From assembly GCA_903845125.1 (NCBI GenBank), contig CAIMWS010000405.1:1-64000 (forward strand): DNA of 64,000 nt, in the 5' to 3' direction. Within the stretch, counting starts at the first letter, position 1; every line of letters starts with the position of its first letter. The position numbers and the translations under genes were made by a program. The notes beneath the pieces are model-generated. The model was not told where the DNA came from. It saw only the letters and a program-made list of their open reading frames with translations, and made no database searches. The stretch is from an uncultured Verrucomicrobiota bacterium (GTDB lineage: Bacteria; Verrucomicrobiota; Verrucomicrobiia; Limisphaerales; UBA1319). This document shows positions 18,115 through 30,560 of the stretch, piece after piece.

Positions 18115-19758
18115 TTAACCCAGGATCGCCTGCAAATCTTTGTCGGGCGTGGAAATCGGCATGAGGTTGAATTTATCAACCAGCACCTTCAGGACGGCGG
18201 GCGTCACAAACGCGGGCAAAGTGGGCCCCAACCGGATGTTCCGGATCCCCAGCGCCAGCAGGGTCAGCAGGATGCAAACCGCCTTTTGCTCATACCAGGA
18301 GAGCACCATCGAGAGCGGCAGATCATTCACCCCGCAATTAAAGGCCTTGGACAACGCCACCGCGATCTGGATGGCTGAGTAGGCATCGTTGCACTGGCCG
18401 ATATCCAGCAATCGCGGTATCCCGCCGATATTGCCGAACTCACGCTTATTGAACCGGAACTTGCCGCAGGCCAGGGTCAGGATCACACAATCCTGCGGAA
18501 CTTTTTCGGTGAAGTCGGTGTAATAATTCCGGCCGGGCCGGGCGCCGTCGCAACCACCGACCAGGAAGAAGCGCTTGATCGCCCCTTTCTTCACCGCCTC
18601 AACAACCTGTCCGGCTACCCCCATGACGGCATCGTGACCGAATCCCACCGTGATCTGTTGGTCTGGGCCATCCGAAACAAACCCGGGTGCAGCCAGGGCG
18701 GCTTCGATCACCGGGCTGAAATCGCGGTTGCGGATGTGTTGAACGCCCGGCCAGGCCACCAAGCCGGAGGTAAAAATGCGCCCTACGTAACCTTCCTGGG
18801 GTTCCTGTATGCAGTTGGTCGTCATCAGAATCGACCCCGGGAACGCGGCGAATTCATCTTTTTGATCCTGCCACGCACCACCGTAATTGCCCACCAGGTG
18901 CGGATAGGCCTTCAGCTTGGGATACCCATGCGCGGGCAGCATTTCGCCGTGGGTGTAGATATTGATGCCCTTGCCCTGGGTCTGTTTCAGCAACTCCTCC
19001 AAATCCTTCAAATCGTGGCCGGAAACCAGGATCGCCTTGCCTTTCACCGGTTCCACCCGGACTTGGGTGGGCCGTGGATGCCCATAAGTGGTGGTGTGGG
19101 CCTGGTCGAGCAGTGCCATCACCTTCAGGTTCACTTCGCCGCAGCGCAGATTCATCGCCAGCAAATCGTTCACAGCGGGCTGGGGATTCACAAGGAAGTT
19201 CAAGGCTTCGTGGAAATAACCGTAAACTTCGTCCGCCTCAAATCCCAGCACCAGCGCATGCTCCGCGTAGGCGGCCGTGCCTTTGACACCGTAGGTCAGC
19301 AGTTCCTGCAAACCGGCCACATCATCCCCGGACTGCGCTCGGCGGGATAAAATGCCAACTTCCTCGCCCTGCCGCGTCAATCCGTCGAGGGTGGAGGCGG
19401 GCTGCCAGGTTCCGGGCCCGGAAACGGTTTCCGGAGTCTGGCCCGCCTTGGTGCAGGCATCCACATACATTTGCCGCGCTTTATCGCGCATCCGCCCCGC
19501 CCGCACCAACATTTCCTCGATCCGCTGGGGGTCGAAATTCACGTTAGTCACTGTCGTAAACAAGGCTTCCACCACAAAAACATCGATCACCCGATCCTTG
19601 GCGCCCAGCAGGCGCGCCCGGTGGGCATATTGGGATATGCCCTTGGCGGCATAAACCAGCAGATCCTGCAGCGCCGCGGATTGCTCATCCTTGCCGCACA
19701 CCGAAAAATCGACACAACCACTGCCCTTCGAGGTTTGTTCGCATTGATAACAAAACAT
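18115..19758 (-). CDS. hcp: Hybrid cluster protein (class I), hydroxylamine/NO reductase
   Basis: A 547-residue protein with the N-terminal cysteine set CYQCEQTSKGSGCVDFSVC. The spacing C-x2-C-x8-C-x5-C is that of class I hybrid cluster proteins of anaerobes, not the E. coli-type class II spacing. Further cluster-ligand regions are visible: SGHDLKDLEELL, TTNCIQEPQEGYVGR, FLVGGCDGARPGRNYY, LACGKFRFN and DIGQCNDAYSA. The family holds a [4Fe-4S] cubane plus a hybrid [4Fe-2O-2S] cluster, reduces hydroxylamine in vitro and acts as a nitric oxide reductase and S-nitrosylase in E. coli. A good ribosome-binding site (AAGGAAATT before ATG) supports the start. A terminator follows and an FNR-like box lies upstream. 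Confidence 0.94.
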   Translation of the reverse strand: MFCYQCEQTSKGSGCVDFSVCGKDEQSAALQDLLVYAAKGISQYAHRARLLGAKDRVIDVFVVEALFTTVTNVNFDPQRIEEMLVRAGRMRDKARQMYVDACTKAGQTPETVSGPGTWQPASTLDGLTRQGEEVGILSRRAQSGDDVAGLQELLTYGVKGTAAYAEHALVLGFEADEVYGYFHEALNFLVNPQPAVNDLLAMNLRCGEVNLKVMALLDQAHTTTYGHPRPTQVRVEPVKGKAILVSGHDLKDLEELLKQTQGKGINIYTHGEMLPAHGYPKLKAYPHLVGNYGGAWQDQKDEFAAFPGSILMTTNCIQEPQEGYVGRIFTSGLVAWPGVQHIRNRDFSPVIEAALAAPGFVSDGPDQQITVGFGHDAVMGVAGQVVEAVKKGAIKRFFLVGGCDGARPGRNYYTDFTEKVPQDCVILTLACGKFRFNKREFGNIGGIPRLLDIGQCNDAYSAIQIAVALSKAFNCGVNDLPLSMVLSWYEQKAVCILLTLLALGIRNIRLGPTLPAFVTPAVLKVLVDKFNLMPISTPDKDLQAILG

Positions 19759-21136: not shown

Positions 21137-21913
21137 TCAGGTAACGAGCGGGCCGGCAGACCATCGAACGGGCTGGCGGTTTAGAATTTCTCCCCGGATG
21201 CCGACTTGGATGAGTGTGACGGGGAGGTCAATGCCCGAGGCTTCCAGGGTTTCCTGAACCAAACGCACCAATCCGCCGCAGCACGGCACTTCCATATAGG
21301 CGATCTCAACGGATTGCAGGGCGTTTTGGGTGAAAATCTGCTCCAGTTTGGGGCGGTAAGCCGCCACGTTGTCCAGCTTGGGGCAGGCGATCAGCAGCAC
21401 ACGGTCCCGCAGCATTTGGCGGTGGAAATCCGGGAAAGCGAACGGCACGCAATCCGCCGCCAGGAGAAGCCGGGCCTGATTGAAATAAGGCGCGCGAACC
21501 GGCACGAGGTGCAGCTGCACCGGCCAATTCCGGAGCTGCGCAGTCGGGGCTGTGGCCGCAGCCGGAGCTTCCGGGGCCGTGCCCGGGGCGGTCTGGAACC
21601 GCGGCATGCGCGAACTGGGGCAGCCCTGGAACAGCGGTTCCAGGATGGGTATGGGCGGCCGGGCAGCCGACGCTTTGGCCAGATGCCGCTGGACGGCGGC
21701 CTCATCAAATTCCGCCGCCTCCCGCTCCACCATCGAGATGGCCCCCTGGGGGCATTCCCCCAGGCAGGCTCCCAAGCCATCGCAATAGGCCTCGCTCACC
21801 AACCGGGCCTTGCCCGCCACCACTTTGAGCGCACCCTCGGCGCAACCCGGCACACACTGGCCGCAGCCATCGCACTTCTCTTCGTCGATCTGGATTATTT
21901 TCCTTTTGGCCAT
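21137..21913 (-). CDS. 4Fe-4S ferredoxin-type protein, partner of hcp by regulation
   Basis: A 258-residue protein with two N-terminal ferredoxin-type motifs: CDGCGQCVPGCAEG (complete C-x2-C-x2-C-x3-C) and CDGLGACLGECPQG, where the second Cys is Leu. A long C-terminal part follows with YFNQARLLLAADCVPFAF, LLIACPKLDN and VPCCGGLVRLVQETLE, whose extra cysteines may bind another cofactor. This architecture is known as an uncharacterised ferredoxin/4Fe-4S protein that occurs in the same genomes as hcp. I infer electron delivery or redox sensing, possibly to Hcp. It is preceded by a TTGAT-N4-GTCAA box of the same kind as the one in front of hcp, at the same relation to a possible -10. Confidence 0.82.
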   Translation of the reverse strand: MAKRKIIQIDEEKCDGCGQCVPGCAEGALKVVAGKARLVSEAYCDGLGACLGECPQGAISMVEREAAEFDEAAVQRHLAKASAARPPIPILEPLFQGCPSSRMPRFQTAPGTAPEAPAAATAPTAQLRNWPVQLHLVPVRAPYFNQARLLLAADCVPFAFPDFHRQMLRDRVLLIACPKLDNVAAYRPKLEQIFTQNALQSVEIAYMEVPCCGGLVRLVQETLEASGIDLPVTLIQVGIRGEILNRQPVRWSAGPLVT

Positions 21914-22322: not shown

Positions 22323-23264
22323 TTAATCTTCGCCGGCCGGTTTGGCCGCCGTCCAAAAAGCCATCATAATCCTGGCCAGGATCTGCTCGCCCGCCTCGTT
22401 GGCGTGGACCGCATCGCGATAGAACAGATGGGGATGCAGCTGTGTGGACCGGATATATTCGGCCCAAGGGGAAGTCATGTCGAGATAGGCGCAGCGCTCC
22501 TCGGCGGCGAGCACCTGCAAAGCCTGGCCATAAGCGCCGGTTCCGGAATGGGGGGCTTTGGCGAGCGCCTCGGCGTCGCGCGGATCGGTGGTACCAAAGG
22601 TGCCGGTGGCCAGCAGGATCTCCACCTCGGGCAATCTGGCGCGCAACTGCCGGATGACGTCGCGGATGCTGGCGGTATCCCGCTGGCTGATGCCACCGAT
22701 GTAAACCAGATTCGGCCGCCAGGGGAGGATGTATTTGGCCACCCGGTCGCCTTCTTTGTAATGCTGGCAGCCGCCGCCGCCACGCACATAAACCTTCGCT
22801 TCGATCCTGGCCTTTGGATAAGCCTCCCGCCACTGCGCCACCCAGCCGGAGCGCATCGTGTCGTTGACAATGCTGTCGCCCAGAGCGAGCAGCCGCAGTT
22901 CGCCGCCACCGGCCAGAATCCGGCGTGTGCGCGGGAACTGCCGCCAATCATTCACGGGCGGGGTGAATTTGCCAGGCGGCAGGGAGGCTTGGATTTCGGC
23001 GATCTGGGCCAGCGAGCGGCAGGGCGTGCTGAAAAGATAATAATCCTTCTCCACCGGTTCGTTGCTCACCGGCACATCGGGCGGGTATTTGGCGGGCAGC
23101 GCCCCTTGCCTGGGGAACTTCACCGGGGAATCCGCCAGCATGCCACCCGGCCGGACGGTGGTATTGACCGCGTTACGATCCGCCGGGGCGGCATTTTGAG
23201 CGTGCGACAGAGCCGCCGCCAGCAGGCTTACAACCAGGGCCAGAATGGATGCGTGGATATTCAT
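22323..23264 (-). CDS. Exported SGNH/GDSL-type hydrolase
   Basis: The start is set at 23264 (MNIHASILALVVSLLAAALSHAQ), a signal peptide. The 89 residues before it in the track ORF are Pro/Gly/Arg-rich, lie in the upstream spacer and are rejected. At about 124-133 is LLALGDSIVNDTM with the nucleophile Ser of block I. Then come YIGGISQRD (the Gly/Asn-block region) and DAVHANEAGEQIL, which supplies the Asp and His of block V. Predicted action is esterase, deacetylase or lipase outside the cytoplasm, perhaps on acetylated polysaccharide. It is separated by a strong terminator from the haem protein gene upstream. Confidence 0.84.
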   Translation of the reverse strand: MNIHASILALVVSLLAAALSHAQNAAPADRNAVNTTVRPGGMLADSPVKFPRQGALPAKYPPDVPVSNEPVEKDYYLFSTPCRSLAQIAEIQASLPPGKFTPPVNDWRQFPRTRRILAGGGELRLLALGDSIVNDTMRSGWVAQWREAYPKARIEAKVYVRGGGGCQHYKEGDRVAKYILPWRPNLVYIGGISQRDTASIRDVIRQLRARLPEVEILLATGTFGTTDPRDAEALAKAPHSGTGAYGQALQVLAAEERCAYLDMTSPWAEYIRSTQLHPHLFYRDAVHANEAGEQILARIMMAFWTAAKPAGED

Positions 23265-23542: not shown

Positions 23543-25384
23543 CTACTGGGATAGAACGTACTCGGCCAGATCGTTCAATTCCTGGGCGGTCAGATTGGAA
23601 GTGGTGCCGTGCTGGTCACCGATATTGTATTTCTGGAAAATCTCCTGGATCGTGGCCGCGCGTCCATCGTGCAGATAAGGGGCGGTGCGCCACACTTCCA
23701 CCAAGGTCGGCGTGTCCATGGCCATGTAGGCTTCACGGTCGCGGCCGGTGCCCACGTCGTATTGGTTCAAGTTGGTGAACAGCGGCGAAGGATGACAGGT
23801 GGTGCAGCCCGCCCCCCCCTCGAAGATCTTTTTGCCGCGTTCGGCGGCCTTGCTGAGCTGTCCGTTGACCAACCGGGGGCTGGGCACCGGCTGGAGCGAC
23901 TTCAGGAATTCATCAATGGCGACCGCATCGGCGTCCGGCCGCACGGCAAACTGAATGCTGCGGATGCCGGCGCGGACCGCGGTTTCGGCGGTGTCGCGCA
24001 CACCGAGGGACATCGCCGGAGGGGTCCGGTGCGCCAGGAGCATGTTCTTGGTATTCTTGGGATTGCCCAAACCATCGTTCAACAGATCCCAATTCAGGGC
24101 ATCCACGCGCACATCCGGATGGCAGGTGGCGCAGCTTTGCCAATGCTGGAAGCACAGGTCGGCATCGTGGAAGAACATCTCACCCTTGCGCACCAGGCTC
24201 AAGGGTAACTCCGGCCCCAGCGCGATCTTGCGGACCTGCTTGTAGCCTTCAGTATCCAAGTCCACAACGCTCATGGAGTCCGAAAAATATTCGACCGCGT
24301 AAACCTGCCGGCCAATGGCCGCCAAACCGCGGGGACCGTTGCCTGTCAGCTTGATGCGCTTACGCAGCGAATACATGAAGCTCAGGTCATTGGGCACATC
24401 GTCCGGCGTGGCGGAAACCTCGGTGACTTTTTCGCCCTTGGCCACCCGGTTCAGCTTGTCCAGCAGCGCGGCCTGGTCAATGACGCTCAATTCATGGGTG
24501 CCGGAGTGGATCACCAGCACATTGCGGCCATCGGCGGTGCAAGCCACGCCGGAGGGATTGGCAGCGCCGAGATCCACATCATCCAGCAGCGGGGTATTCA
24601 GCCGTTTTTTGGCGGCCACGTCGATGACCGTGAGGGCGGAGGTGTTCATCCATCCGCGCTCGAGCTGGGTGGTGGGCAACTGGTAACGGGAGAGGGTATG
24701 CACCACATAGGCGTAGCGGCCATCGCGCGACATGCAGACGCTCTGCAGGCTGGTGCTGCCGTTGGGCAACTGGATATTCGCGACCACCTTGGCGGTGGCC
24801 GTGTCGATCACGCTCACCACCGCCGCCACGTAATCCTGGTCAGCCGGCTGGGTGGGCAGGAGGTTGGCCACAAACAGGTATTTGCCATCCAGGGTCAATG
24901 CGGCGGCCACTGGCTCGCGAGCCACCGGCACCCGGGCCACTTCCTTCCGGGCAGTGAGATCGAAAATGGCGACCTGGTTGAGGAACCGATTGCAGACATA
25001 CAGCCGCTGGCCATCGGGGCTGGCCACCGGCGCCGTCGGCGAATGGCCGGTCTTCAGGGATCCCACCGATGTGCCATCGGATAACTGGAGGATCTCCACG
25101 CGGCCATCGGCCACACCGCAGGTCACAAAGAGGCGGCCGCCATCCGGGGCCAGCGCCAGGCCGGTGGGCTTGGCCGGGAGCTTCCAGGTTTGGGCCACCT
25201 TGCCCGCGGCTACATCAAACACAGCCACCTGCCCGGCCGTGGCTTCGGCAATGAATAATTGTTTGCCATCAGAGCTGGCCACGACGGCGGAGGGCGATAG
25301 ATAATTCTCCGCGGCCGCCGCGCTGGAAACCAGGCAGGCCAACAACAGACTCCAGTGTAGGTTGATATTTGTTTTCATATTCAT
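23543..25384 (-). CDS. Exported YVTN-type beta-propeller fused to di-haem cytochrome c (MauG/CCP-like)
   Basis: A 613-residue protein with a signal peptide (MNMKTNINLHWSLLLACLVSSAAAA; start 25384 or 25378). Residues about 27-410 form a propeller of YVTN-type repeats: AVFDVAAGKVAQTWKLPAKP, VSVIDTATAKVVANIQLP and SVVDLDTEGYKQVRKIAL. The C-terminal part has two haem c sites, CATCH at about 418 and CTTCH at about 527. Between them is a MauG/cytochrome c peroxidase-like segment with RTPPAMSLGVRDTAETAVRAG, and later RTAPYLHDGRAATIQE. It probably works in periplasmic peroxide or oxidative chemistry. It ends a unit of three haem-protein genes (12-base gap from the next). Confidence 0.84.
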   Translation of the reverse strand: MNMKTNINLHWSLLLACLVSSAAAAENYLSPSAVVASSDGKQLFIAEATAGQVAVFDVAAGKVAQTWKLPAKPTGLALAPDGGRLFVTCGVADGRVEILQLSDGTSVGSLKTGHSPTAPVASPDGQRLYVCNRFLNQVAIFDLTARKEVARVPVAREPVAAALTLDGKYLFVANLLPTQPADQDYVAAVVSVIDTATAKVVANIQLPNGSTSLQSVCMSRDGRYAYVVHTLSRYQLPTTQLERGWMNTSALTVIDVAAKKRLNTPLLDDVDLGAANPSGVACTADGRNVLVIHSGTHELSVIDQAALLDKLNRVAKGEKVTEVSATPDDVPNDLSFMYSLRKRIKLTGNGPRGLAAIGRQVYAVEYFSDSMSVVDLDTEGYKQVRKIALGPELPLSLVRKGEMFFHDADLCFQHWQSCATCHPDVRVDALNWDLLNDGLGNPKNTKNMLLAHRTPPAMSLGVRDTAETAVRAGIRSIQFAVRPDADAVAIDEFLKSLQPVPSPRLVNGQLSKAAERGKKIFEGGAGCTTCHPSPLFTNLNQYDVGTGRDREAYMAMDTPTLVEVWRTAPYLHDGRAATIQEIFQKYNIGDQHGTTSNLTAQELNDLAEYVLSQ

Positions 25385-25396
25385 TTCGGTGTCCCA

Positions 25397-28003
25397 TCAT
25401 TCTGCATTATTCATTCGGTTCAGCAACGCCTGAATACCGCGTTGCTCTGCGCGCTCCAACTGCCGCCGTTTCTCCAGGAAATGCGCATATTTCCCGGCTT
25501 CCGCCGCCGACCAACCATTGGCCTCGGCGTAATCGCCGCAAAACGGCACCAGCAAATCAATCCAACAGGCCATTTTTTCGAGTTCTTCGCGGGAGAGTGT
25601 CACACCCTCATGGCCGTTGGCGAGCAAATTCATCAAGCGGCTGCGCGCCGCTCCCTGGAAATAAGGCGGGAGCATTTCCGGAACCGATTGCGCGCCGATC
25701 CAGTTGACCAATTCGCCCGCCTCCCCCGCCAGGTGGGGATTGTTGAAACGATCCGACAACCGCGCCTGTGACAAAGCCAGGTAGGAGGCACTCCACAAGC
25801 GGCGGGACAATTCCTCCCGCACCGGGACGTCCCGGAGGCTGAAAACCGAATTGGTCTGGATGGCCGGACGCACCGCAGGGGGCGATTGCAGGCCGGCACG
25901 CTGGAGCAGCAGTTCGTGGTTGTTGTGGCACTGGACGCAGTGGCGGTCCAGCACGGGCTGGATTTCCCGTGCGAAACTGAAGCCGCGGGGCGGACCGTAA
26001 AAGGGCTCGAGAGCCTGGGGGCCGGCTTTGAACGCCAGTGTTAACCCATCCAGGTTGGGCGGAGTAGCGTTCTTGGATTCGTGACAGCCCACGCAGGAGG
26101 ATTTCTCGCCGGGCTGCAAGGTGCTCCAACTGCGCATGGTCTGCACCACATAGCCGCGCTCGTCCAGCGCCTGGAAATAAACCGGGGTGCGGGCAGGCAC
26201 CTTAAAACAAGCCGAGCCATCGGGATAAATCCGGGCGCTGCCGAGCACCACCTTGACGTCCCAAGCGCCGTTGCCGATGGAGATGGGGGTGCTGGAGAGG
26301 GCCCCGCCAGCCGGACCGGAGCTGTAGTTGCACCCGATGCCCGCGGCGCGAAAATCCAGCGCCACCACGCGCAAGCGGGGAATGCTCCCCCGGGGAATAC
26401 CCCGCAATCCCGGCCCGCTGTAAATATCCTGCAGATAGTAAACCCCGGTGTCCTGCCGGTAATCGACCAGGCTCGGCCGCACGGGCGGCTCCACGCGGGG
26501 TGCCAGGGGAACCGGCTGGCTGCAGGAGGTGGCAGGATCCCAGGCCAGCAATTCGCGGCGGCCATCGGCCAGCACCAGGTAAATCCCAAAATGAGCGGGC
26601 GAACGCGCCCATCCATGGGGCGAGTAAGCGGCCAGGAAGGTTTGTTCGTCGAGCGGATAAGGGTATTGGAAAAGTTCCCCCTGCTGCCCGTAGGCGTCGA
26701 TTTTGTCGGCCGGGGTGGACCGTACCGGAGCGATCAACTGGGCACCCGCATTCTCCTGGCGGCCGCGGGCCGGGTCCAGGATGCCCAGCTTGCCGGTTTG
26801 CCGGGTGTGATGGCCGGCGAAGATGGCCACCACCTTTTGCGTGCCGGGAATGCCCCGGGCGTGCAACACCGACGTGGGGAACCAGGAATTGTTACCGTAG
26901 AATTCGGCCTGGGCGGTCCCGTCCGGATTCATTTGGAACAAGCCCTGCACATAGATCTGGCCGCGGTCATTGTATTCCCAGCGGGTGTAAATGATCCGCC
27001 CATCCGGCAGCACCGCCGGGTAGTTGTCGTGCACCTGGTCAAAGGTAAGCCGCCGCATAAACTGGCCGTTGGGATCACAGCGGTAAAGGTTGCTCACCTC
27101 GGTCCACCAGCAATCCACCGTCTGCACGCAACGCGTGGAGTTGAAAAGGATGTCACCCCCGGGCAGATAAGCGCCCTCATAATCGGCGCAGCCCAGGCCC
27201 GAGGTCAACTGCCTGGCCTGGCCGGTTTCGACCTGCCATTCATACAGATGGTAATCATCTTGTTGGTTCGATTTTTTCCAGGCGAAGAGGATGCGCCGGC
27301 CATCCCAGGAAACATCCGGGTCGCGCACCACCCCCCTGGCGTCGGCCAACAAGGTTTGGACCTTCCCGGAGGTCTCGGCAAGATCCAGAATGCAGAGGGC
27401 TGCCCCCGGATCAAATTGCCGCTCATTCTGGGCATCGGACTGGCCTTCAGTATAAGCGTAATGCGATCCGCCGAGAACCTGGTGTTTGGTGAATACTATC
27501 TTCGGCCACCGCGCCACCAAGGGCTGCAGCCTAGTCTTCCGGCGCAAACCGGCTGCCCGTTCGTAGAACGCCAGCCAGCGGGCATCCCCGGGCGCCACGG
27601 CAGCCAATTCCGCCAATTCGCTCCGCAGCGGTTCGCCCGCCGCCCCGGTCTCGGCCAGCACCCGCTCCAGAACGTGCAGGCTCAGCGGGGCGCTGCTTTC
27701 CAGCCAGGCGGGCAGGTTCTTGCCGAAATCCTGCATCACCCAATCCATCTGCCGGGGGAATTCAATTTCCAAGGAACGGGCCAGGGCCGTGCCAGCCTTT
27801 TGGCGGGCGGCCTGGTCGTTGCCGATCTGGACCAGGCTCTGGCGGCCACGAATTACAGCTCCTGGCCAGCCATCCGATTGAGCACCAAACGGCGAAGGCT
27901 CAGCACGGACCATCAACAACCCGAGACAAATCCAGGAGGCAAGGCCCGTCAGGCACCGGCTCCACGGGATTACGCCAGCGGCTGGTTTCACAATACGCGT
28001 CAT
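25397..28003 (-). CDS. Exported di-haem PD40 / hydrazine-synthase-alpha-like protein (copy A)
   Basis: The start is set at 28003 (MTRIVKPAAGVIPWSRCLTGLASWICLGLLMVRA), a signal peptide; the 50 residues before it overlap the neighbouring gene in another frame. The 868-residue protein has a TolB/PD40-type propeller (DPDVSWDGRRILFAW, DILFNSTRCVQT, NYPAVLPDGRIIYTRWEY) and a central GTQKVVAIFAGHHTR block. Haem c sites are CVGCHES at about 637 and CVQCHNN at about 689. This combination is what I know from proteins annotated with the HZS-alpha middle domain, first described in hydrazine synthase but widespread in Planctomycetes and Verrucomicrobia. A hydrazine role is not implied. The neighbour at 28011 is a paralog. 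Confidence 0.75.
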   Translation of the reverse strand: MTRIVKPAAGVIPWSRCLTGLASWICLGLLMVRAEPSPFGAQSDGWPGAVIRGRQSLVQIGNDQAARQKAGTALARSLEIEFPRQMDWVMQDFGKNLPAWLESSAPLSLHVLERVLAETGAAGEPLRSELAELAAVAPGDARWLAFYERAAGLRRKTRLQPLVARWPKIVFTKHQVLGGSHYAYTEGQSDAQNERQFDPGAALCILDLAETSGKVQTLLADARGVVRDPDVSWDGRRILFAWKKSNQQDDYHLYEWQVETGQARQLTSGLGCADYEGAYLPGGDILFNSTRCVQTVDCWWTEVSNLYRCDPNGQFMRRLTFDQVHDNYPAVLPDGRIIYTRWEYNDRGQIYVQGLFQMNPDGTAQAEFYGNNSWFPTSVLHARGIPGTQKVVAIFAGHHTRQTGKLGILDPARGRQENAGAQLIAPVRSTPADKIDAYGQQGELFQYPYPLDEQTFLAAYSPHGWARSPAHFGIYLVLADGRRELLAWDPATSCSQPVPLAPRVEPPVRPSLVDYRQDTGVYYLQDIYSGPGLRGIPRGSIPRLRVVALDFRAAGIGCNYSSGPAGGALSSTPISIGNGAWDVKVVLGSARIYPDGSACFKVPARTPVYFQALDERGYVVQTMRSWSTLQPGEKSSCVGCHESKNATPPNLDGLTLAFKAGPQALEPFYGPPRGFSFAREIQPVLDRHCVQCHNNHELLLQRAGLQSPPAVRPAIQTNSVFSLRDVPVREELSRRLWSASYLALSQARLSDRFNNPHLAGEAGELVNWIGAQSVPEMLPPYFQGAARSRLMNLLANGHEGVTLSREELEKMACWIDLLVPFCGDYAEANGWSAAEAGKYAHFLEKRRQLERAEQRGIQALLNRMNNAE

Positions 28004-28010
28004 AAAGCGG

Positions 28011-30560
28011 CTACCGGATGGGACCCATCTCCATGCCCTGGTCATAGATTTTTTCGCCGGTGCGGATGGCCAGCCGGTTGCGCTGCTCGATTTCCTGGCG
28101 GGCCACATACTTGGCATCGCGCCAGCGGTCCATCTCGCAGGGCTGGAATTCATCGCGGTCAGCCTCCGGGTTCGCGGCCAACCGCTCGCGTCCGGCCCGG
28201 ATGATGGCCAGCGCCCCGGCGTAAGCGTCGGGGTTCTTTTCCTTCAAACCGGAAAGGCAGGAGCTTAGTTCCGGGCGGTCAAAACTGATTTGCGGTCCCC
28301 GATTCTGGTCGTGGCTCGCCAGGTTGGCCAAGGGTACCCCGGTCCATTTTTTCAGCTGTTCCAGTTCCGCGCCGGTCAACGGCGCCCGCCCGGCCAGGTG
28401 CCCCGGGAACGCGCTGGCATATGAAGGGTAATACGGGGCGTTGATGTCGATCCAGGTGACCACCCGGGCAAAATCCTCCGGGCTGAGCTTCACCCCGTGG
28501 TGCTCCCGGCGCAGCGTGGCCGCCAGCGGACTCCGGTGGGATCCCCAGCCAAAGGCTGGCAGGTTCTGGGCCGGGCCGGCCCCGACCGCCCGGATGTATT
28601 TCTTCTGCCACAGGTCTATATAGGAAGCATTGAAGACCAGGTCGCGATCGCCACTCAGGACCGGCTTGGCACCGTCCGGTTTGCCGTAATCATGGCAGCT
28701 CACGCAGTGGCGGTCGAACACCGGCTGAACCTCTTTGGCGTAATTGAAAAACCGCACCGGCCCATACCAGCCATCCAGGCTGGTGGGCGCCCGCTTGAGG
28801 GCCAGGGGCATGGCGGTGGCGGCGGGAGTTGGCGCGCGGCGGCGATCCTCGTGGCAGCCCACACAGCCCTGACGCTCGCCCGGTTGCACCTGGGCCCCGC
28901 TGCGCATGGACTGCACCATCATGCCATTTTCGTCCAGCAGCTGGAAATAGACAAATCGCTCGGCCGGCACCGTGAAATAAGCCGAGCCATCGGCCTCCAC
29001 GGGCACCGTGCCCAGGATCCGCTTGTTGTTGAAATCGTGCCAGTTCATCGCGGGAGCTTCCTGGCCCTGCCCGCCCCAGGCGGGATCGGTCCAGAACCGT
29101 TTCTCCGGGGATTCCACCACCCGCAGGAATTTCACTGAACCGCGCGCCACCCCGGCCATATGGGTACCTTCGTAAACATCCTGCACATAGAACGTACCCG
29201 CCGGTTCCTCGTAGTTGCGGCGGGCGGGGATCACCGGGGGCCGGGGCCGGGCCACCAGCGGCAGGGGGTCGAAACAACCGCGCTCGTCGTTGTGCACCAG
29301 AATTTCATTACCGAAAGTGTCCAGCAGATACATCCCCATCTGTTCGCCCTGGCCAGTCATGCGGGAGCATAGAAAGTATTTGCCGGCCGTCTGTGGCCGG
29401 GCCGGATCATACAGCGGGTACGGATCCTCGTAACGCAGGCGCACCCGCGTGAAGGTGTCGAAATCCCCCACCCCAATCAGGCTGCGGGCGCTGGCGGGCC
29501 AGATATGGATCACTGGATTGCCACCGTCCAAGCCCAGGCGTCGGTCCACAATGGCCAGCGCGCCCCAGGGCCGGTCGTGGCACGATCCGAAAACGCACAC
29601 GGCACGCTGCGTGCCGGGAATCATGCGGGCATCAATCACCGCCCCCGGGGAGGCGGTATTGTTGCCCCAGAAGACCGTGTGGGCCGTGCCGTCGGGGTTC
29701 ACCGTCCACAAAGCCTGGCCATCGCCGAAGTTGCGATCCACATACTCCCACCGGTCATACAGGATGCGGCCGTCGTCCATCACGCTGCCGTGGCCCTCGA
29801 AGAGCGTGCTCTTGCCGATCTGGTGGATGTTGGCCCCGTCCGGCTCCATGCGGTAAAGGTTGGCCATGATGTGCCGGTTGCACATGCAATATTTGGGTTC
29901 GCGGGTCGAGGTGAAGGCGATGTGATCGTCCGGCAGGAAAAACGGGTCAAAATCATCCACATCCGCCGCGGTGGTCAACTGTTTGAGCGCGGAGCCATCG
30001 CACTGTGCGGTGTAAATGTGATAGCTGTCCGCCGGAGTGCGCCGCAGGGCGAACACCATCCGGCGGCCGTCGAAATTCACCTCGGGATCGCGCACCATCC
30101 CCTGCGGGACATCCAGGATCGTGGCCACCCGCCGGGTGGCTCCCAGGTGCAGCACCTTCAACGCCCCGCCCGCCGTGAACGAACCGCTGTTATACTCCCC
30201 GCGGGCGTTGGGAAAAAACGTGGCGGTGTTGTGGTGGTCCGGTTTGTATTGGGGGCGGGACACATACAGGATCGGCTGGCCGGAAACGAGCGGATTGGCC
30301 AGCAGTGCCTCCTGGCGCAACTCCGACCACGCCTGGCGCAGGCGTTGGGTGTCCACCCCGCTGGTGGCTTCACTCTCCAGCGCCGCCAGGCGCTGCAGGT
30401 ATTGCGGGGCGCCGGGATAAGCCGGGCCATAGGTTGCGGCCAGATCCCGGATGGCGGCCCGGAACGCCGTAACCTCCTCCGGGGCGAGGGGTGTTTCAAC
30501 CGCCCTGCCTGCCGGACTGGCCAGCAGGAGCAGGCAAATGATCGTGTGCGTGGTTTTCAT
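28011..30560 (-). CDS. Exported di-haem PD40 / hydrazine-synthase-alpha-like protein (copy B)
   Basis: The start is set at 30560 (MKTTHTIICLLLLASPAGRAVE), a signal peptide; the Met at 30659 is possible but gives an odd N-terminus. The 849 residues follow the same plan as copy A: propeller with DPEVNFDGRRMVFALRRT and DDGRILYDRWEYVD, GTQRAVCVFGSCHDRPWG, then CVGCHED at about 566 and CVSCHDYGK at about 619. It differs by an N-terminal helical part (AFRAAIRDLAATYGPAYPGAPQYLQR). Its stop lies 7 bases before the start of copy A, so the two are very probably one operon with the di-haem beta-propeller gene. Electron transfer or oxidation of an unknown substrate is inferred. Confidence 0.76.
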   Translation of the reverse strand: MKTTHTIICLLLLASPAGRAVETPLAPEEVTAFRAAIRDLAATYGPAYPGAPQYLQRLAALESEATSGVDTQRLRQAWSELRQEALLANPLVSGQPILYVSRPQYKPDHHNTATFFPNARGEYNSGSFTAGGALKVLHLGATRRVATILDVPQGMVRDPEVNFDGRRMVFALRRTPADSYHIYTAQCDGSALKQLTTAADVDDFDPFFLPDDHIAFTSTREPKYCMCNRHIMANLYRMEPDGANIHQIGKSTLFEGHGSVMDDGRILYDRWEYVDRNFGDGQALWTVNPDGTAHTVFWGNNTASPGAVIDARMIPGTQRAVCVFGSCHDRPWGALAIVDRRLGLDGGNPVIHIWPASARSLIGVGDFDTFTRVRLRYEDPYPLYDPARPQTAGKYFLCSRMTGQGEQMGMYLLDTFGNEILVHNDERGCFDPLPLVARPRPPVIPARRNYEEPAGTFYVQDVYEGTHMAGVARGSVKFLRVVESPEKRFWTDPAWGGQGQEAPAMNWHDFNNKRILGTVPVEADGSAYFTVPAERFVYFQLLDENGMMVQSMRSGAQVQPGERQGCVGCHEDRRRAPTPAATAMPLALKRAPTSLDGWYGPVRFFNYAKEVQPVFDRHCVSCHDYGKPDGAKPVLSGDRDLVFNASYIDLWQKKYIRAVGAGPAQNLPAFGWGSHRSPLAATLRREHHGVKLSPEDFARVVTWIDINAPYYPSYASAFPGHLAGRAPLTGAELEQLKKWTGVPLANLASHDQNRGPQISFDRPELSSCLSGLKEKNPDAYAGALAIIRAGRERLAANPEADRDEFQPCEMDRWRDAKYVARQEIEQRNRLAIRTGEKIYDQGMEMGPIR

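Follow-up and report, generated by a model that had tools for sequence, protein, structure and literature searches.

Could a gene cluster in a verrucomicrobial genome encode an enzyme built like hydrazine synthase (HZS), the hydrazine-making enzyme of anammox bacteria, which to our knowledge was long believed to be without relatives, and would such an enzyme make hydrazine? The window (the whole stretch of 64,000 nucleotides that was analysed) belongs to a genome of 8.5 Mb, in which it is contig C405, and the three genes in question, A, B and C, all lie on its minus strand. Gene A (28011..30560) encodes an exported alpha-type protein of 849 aa with a TolB-like propeller, an HZS_alpha middle domain (PF18582, 3e-35; 5c2v_A was matched by phmmer) and a C-terminal haem domain. 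Gene B (25397..28003) encodes a second alpha-type protein of 868 aa (PF18582, 2e-30; AlphaFold match 5c2v_A), and gene C (23543..25384) a 613-aa homologue of the HZS beta-gamma fusion (NF052342, 1e-48) with a 7-bladed propeller and a MauG/CCP-like di-haem domain. The A stop (TAG) and the B start (ATG) are separated by 7 nt (28004..28010); a longer ORF offers an alternative start for B at 28153, with an overlap of 143 nt with A; and the gap between B and C is 12 nt. Clear signal peptides were seen at the start of A and C, and the N-terminus of B is hydrophobic as judged by eye. The initial annotation had described two exported proteins, both of them with a pair of CxxCH sites, and a 7-base gap between their genes, and was correct in both coordinates and gap. 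Its assignment of PD40 propellers to both proteins was supported in part: the PD40 match itself was weak (0.0012 for A, below the curated cut-off, and none for B), but both NCBIfam and the modelled fold of B backed a TolB-type propeller.

Each of the three proteins contains two CxxCH motifs, for a total of six. Those of A are equivalent to the haem alphaI (CVGCH; 28851..28865) and haem alphaII (CVSCH; 28692..28706) sites of HZS, those of B to the same alphaI and alphaII sites (26081..26095 and 25925..25939, respectively), and those of C to the haem gammaI (24119..24133) and gammaII (23792..23806) sites, all on the minus strand. The motif count by itself is weak evidence and not significant (8 in the window compared with 4.5 expected); the sites of A, B and C were nevertheless accepted as real, and chance motifs ruled out, because homologues show little or no variation at them and conserve the haem Cys and His. 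A GDSL/SGNH hydrolase with a signal peptide (22323..23264, minus strand; PF13472, 4e-9) is encoded 278 nt downstream of C and is perhaps co-transcribed with the A-B-C operon; the hydrolase gene was not conserved beside C at other loci.

The link of A and B to HZS-alpha, proposed initially, was confirmed by the PF18582 matches and by the fold of B, whose AlphaFold model, of moderate quality (pLDDT 77.5), matched 5c2v_A best (E 2.3e-28 over 829 columns, TM 0.60). Among curated models, C matched the HZS beta-gamma fusion NF052342 best and HZS beta thereafter (2e-32), and the HZS gamma model also matched (1e-23). A profile of the C family gave 1.3e-44 with 5c2v_B and 1.9e-44 with 5c2v_C (a cytochrome c peroxidase reached about 1e-11), and the AlphaFold model of C matched 5c2v_B best (E 2.5e-29, TM 0.85 on target length); HZS chains were the best matches of both the B and the C model by a wide margin. 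The motif FNDA...CASCH...GLxWDL...KNTK is common to C and HZS gamma, and the C propeller keeps the HZS-beta insertion loop, which in HZS faces the tunnel to alpha. C also carries CCP_MauG, and models for MauG, MbnH and His-Xaa-Ser-system MauG-like proteins match it. The third gene had been annotated as encoding a propeller/MauG-like di-haem protein; both domains were found, but the HZS beta/gamma identity had been missed. Because C is a homologue of the beta-gamma fusion, homologues of the alpha, beta and gamma subunits of HZS are all encoded at this one locus.

A and B are 33% identical to each other and 50-62% identical to members of their own subfamilies elsewhere. Both in the alpha tree and in a smaller, careful tree, A fell within an A-type clade and B within a B-type clade (SH-aLRT 100 for each); the B-type clade is the sister group of alphas that carry a fused FGE-sulfatase domain (PF03781), and a further clade of the alpha tree has three CxxCH motifs. 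Judged from these sequence trees, A and B come from different ancient alpha subfamilies. The pair had been regarded as a simple paralogous tandem, a description that the alpha tree contradicts; a recent tandem duplication was ruled out, because each protein lies in its own well-supported subfamily. All 15 triads of alpha, alpha' and betagamma, the window included, pair alphas of different subfamilies (P about 0.04 under random pairing), with the pairings FGE+A, FGE+B, FGE+3-haem, A+3-haem, A+B and others; alpha architecture is mix-and-match. A C-terminal FGE-sulfatase (SUMF1/EgtB/PvdO-like) domain, Pfam-confirmed in two alphas and assigned in the others from clade and length, is carried by L086:3220-7320, L140:4472-7399 and about 30 other alphas, most of which are the upstream alpha of a triad.

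The C-type betagamma family comprised at least 582 loci in the species genomes searched, with hosts in Planctomycetota, Hydrogenedentes, Kiritimatiellae, Lentisphaerae and Verrucomicrobia among others. An alpha gene was directly upstream of C (-1) on the same strand at 38 of 91 loci (Fisher 1e-26) and a second alpha was at -2 at 16 of 73 (Fisher 2e-10), compared with a background of 6/439 at distant positions. Where at least 7 kb of upstream sequence was available (42 loci), an alpha was within 500 nt in 19, and 9 of these had a second alpha within 1 kb; about half of the C-type genes with long flanks had no alpha within 500 nt upstream. Clusters of alpha-alpha'-betagamma recur in PVC bacteria and Hydrogenedentes (L086, L095, L098, L099, L103, L116, L126, L135, L140, L144 and L157; with larger gaps, L082, L145 and L149). 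The exact order of A-type, B-type and C was found only in the window among the loci read. The B-C pair is kept in a genome of the same family, Verrucomicrobia bacterium RA.bin74 (L060 = L127; 61% and 54%), and also in L145, L149, L157 and L097, and A-type and B-type genes occur alone or without C as well, often as solitary genes in the phylum. Double-length C-type betagamma ORFs (~1,210-1,230 aa) were seen directly before an A-type alpha at L241:2141-5821 and L242:1479-5105.

In HZS, haem alphaI has alphaTyr591 as a ligand, zinc is bound by alphaHis587 together with alphaCys303, and a third cysteine anchors the gammaI haem, whose pocket also contains a His and an Asp (PMC12607021, PMC12758564). 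In our alignment the alphaTyr591 column is a gap in every A-type and B-type row; alphaHis587 is kept, and alphaCys303 is replaced by Asn in every one of these rows. The loss of alphaCys303 is not decisive alone, because Scalinduaceae are likewise described as being without it (PMC12758564). Within the aligned gamma sites of C, His144 is replaced by Ser (Ser459), Cys165 by Ala/Gly and Asp168 by Ser/Arg; candidate axial haem ligands are a conserved His near the HZS His772 position and the near-invariant Met458 of C. Full-length scores were 51.6 bits for A, 58.5 bits for B and 165.9 bits for C; the curated equivalog cut-offs are 800 bits for HZS-alpha (NF052339) and 1250 bits for NF052342, and a scan of the genome gave no HZS-alpha above the curated cut-off, with the best protein at about 31 of 800 bits. 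AU tests went against grouping with HZS for A (p 0.010), B (p 0.026) and the C-type family (p 0.043, which is marginal); in these trees HZS sits on a long branch and is represented by fragments, taken from HMMER alignments to 5C2V. These trees and tests point to A, B and C being outside the HZS lineage. As to the earlier placement of A and B in the HZS-alpha family, the CxxCH histidines were indeed conserved, but a phylogeny against true HZS-alpha put both copies outside it, and the Tyr ligand and the zinc Cys are gone. The claim that the locus lies outside any anammox context held, given the replaced HZS residues and the genome scan, and anammox metabolism was ruled out on the same two grounds.

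The genome encodes 35 HZS_alpha (PF18582) proteins and three betagamma homologues, each of which adjoins an alpha. Also within this genome, locus L039 (G000:C521:22000-36000) pairs a 3-haem betagamma with a 1-haem alpha and resembles published clade III. An octahaem HAO-family-like protein (8 CxxCH, counted by eye) is encoded next to an NrfD-like membrane protein (G000:C485:37362-37811; L159:940-2385). In the window, genes for a hybrid-cluster (prismane/hydroxylamine reductase) protein (18115-19758) and a ferredoxin-type protein (21137-21913) are on the same strand as the operon, a few kb off and not contiguous with it. A link to hcp was rejected and its proximity taken as coincidence, because an opposite-strand gene separates the operon from hcp, which was not seen as a recurrent neighbour. 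Elsewhere the commonest conserved neighbour of C is a protein with two Rid-like / chorismatase-fold domains, encoded directly downstream of the C-type gene at 22 loci (L064:3768-4904, L140:11770-12873, L117:11758-12840 and 19 more); it is not beside C in the window, and a distant homologue is encoded in the same genome at C374. The double-Rid neighbour hints at imine/enamine chemistry. At some loci (L095) the genes after C are of the Radical-SAM SPASM type.

We think it fairly likely that A, B and C form an operon whose product is a multihaem oxidoreductase outside the cytoplasm, built on the HZS plan, with one betagamma, two unlike alphas and six haems c. The HZS residues are missing and the two alphas are different, and the operon therefore probably specifies a widespread haem redox complex with another job. 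Going by gene order, the products of A, B and C would assemble into an alpha-alpha'-betagamma complex. The reaction would take place at the gammaI-type haem of C, with the gammaII-type haem supplying it on the pattern of HZS and MauG/CCP, and electrons would enter or leave via the gammaII-type haem; the alpha haems might serve a second step or electron transfer, and alpha subunits swapped between species could alter specificity. The periplasmic redox complex with six haem sites of the initial annotation is compatible with all of these findings, including the six CxxCH motifs, with gene order as the only argument for a complex. The substrate may be organic, perhaps carbohydrate-linked, and oxidised or modified outside the cytoplasm, as faintly suggested by neighbours of A/B-type alphas, which include sulfatases, GH123, GH31, FGGY kinases, GFO/IDH/MocA and SGNH hydrolases. 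This argument is a weak one, because these genomes abound in carbohydrate genes (the host genome alone has 28 sulfatases); the neighbours are suggestive rather than an established enrichment, and a carbohydrate role was not accepted.

Alternatively, C could act by itself as a di-haem enzyme of the MauG/MbnH/CCP kind, either a peroxidase or a maturase that oxidises residues of a partner protein, and A and B would then be its electron partners or protein substrates and not catalytic subunits. The CCP_MauG domain, the matches to MauG-type models, the many C-type genes without an alpha neighbour and the Radical-SAM SPASM genes at loci such as L095 would fit this explanation, which we consider unlikely: every C-type protein checked has Ser, Ala or Ile in place of the conserved inter-haem Trp that is important for catalysis by CCP and MauG (only rows resembling clades I and III have Trp), and the closest solved relatives of C are HZS gamma and beta, well ahead of CCP or MauG. 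It is quite unlikely that the three are co-transcribed yet separately working members of large exported haem-protein families; the 35 PF18582 proteins of the genome and the frequent solitary A-type and B-type genes would be expected from this, whereas the adjoining of an alpha by every betagamma gene of the genome, the excess of alphas at -1 and -2 of C over background in the 91 loci, and the retention by C of the HZS-beta insertion loop, located at the alpha tunnel in HZS, all argue against it.

That the operon encodes a true hydrazine synthase or other N-N-forming enzyme, as part of an unrecognised anammox-like metabolism, is very improbable. Such an enzyme would agree with the presence of homologues of all HZS subunits, and with the Hcp (hydroxylamine reductase-like) gene and the one octahaem HAO-like protein of the genome, but alphaTyr591, alphaCys303, gammaHis144, gammaCys165 and gammaAsp168 are all replaced, no protein of the genome comes near the curated HZS-alpha cut-off, the AU tests reject grouping with HZS, and the published analysis of related loci likewise judged these not to be N-N-forming (PMC12758564). 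The best reading of the sequences is that A-B-C would not make hydrazine and would not be an N-N-forming enzyme. Against the preferred reading of a complex of A, B and C stand the restriction of the exact A-B-C order to the window, the A- and B-type genes without C, the roughly half of long-flanked C-type genes with no alpha close upstream, the moderate quality of the B model, and the other chemistry at which the double-Rid neighbour hints. We suggest, only tentatively, that PVC bacteria and Hydrogenedentes have a widespread class of HZS-shaped enzymes outside the cytoplasm, with a betagamma core and two exchangeable alphas (one often FGE-fused), a chemistry unlike that of HZS or MauG/CCP, and a gamma pocket without the Trp, His and third Cys. 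With A, B and C there are concrete proteins for testing what role the HZS scaffold played before hydrazine synthesis or alongside it.

Hagglund et al. (December 2025; PMC12758564) described loci outside anammox, sorted into clades I-IV, that combine an alpha homologue with a fused betagamma; these were the first such loci to be published, and no function was assigned to them. The mixed-alpha locus of the window is a variant of these loci, tied to the betagamma family of at least 582 loci, in which some alpha partners carry an FGE-type domain; neither a mixed alpha pair nor a Trp-less, Cys-less gamma was found in the main text of PMC12758564. Shared with the published loci, as there described, are an alpha beside a fused betagamma in non-anammox bacteria and the alphaTyr591 gap. 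The window locus is without the extra N-terminal haems of clade I (8) and clade III (1), and C has neither the Trp nor the third Cys that clade I- and III-type proteins carry. By description alone, the window locus resembles clade IV, having no FG-GAP gene and a taxon-specific order. Among our loci, L074-L076 (10-haem betagamma and 1-haem alpha, with one gene between) and L039, L077 and L078 (3-haem betagamma) look, by sequence, like clades I and III as outlined in that source, with Trp in the gamma144 column of these rows and, adjoining the gamma165 column, a Cys (QCG).

Compared with HZS of Kuenenia stuttgartiensis (PDB 5C2V), alpha corresponds to A and B, and beta and gamma to C; A-B-C differs in having beta and gamma fused, two unlike alphas and alpha before betagamma, in the missing Tyr591, the change of Cys303 to Asn and the replaced gamma residues, and in its place outside the HZS branch. 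The betagamma fusion of Ca. Scalindua (NF052342) has the same order as C, beta propeller and then gamma di-haem domain, whereas C scores 166 bits against its cut-off of 1250. With MauG, MbnH and bacterial cytochrome c peroxidase the C-terminal part of C shares the di-haem fold and two CxxCH motifs; C differs from them in lacking Trp where gammaHis144 aligns and in the full HZS-beta-like propeller fused in front.
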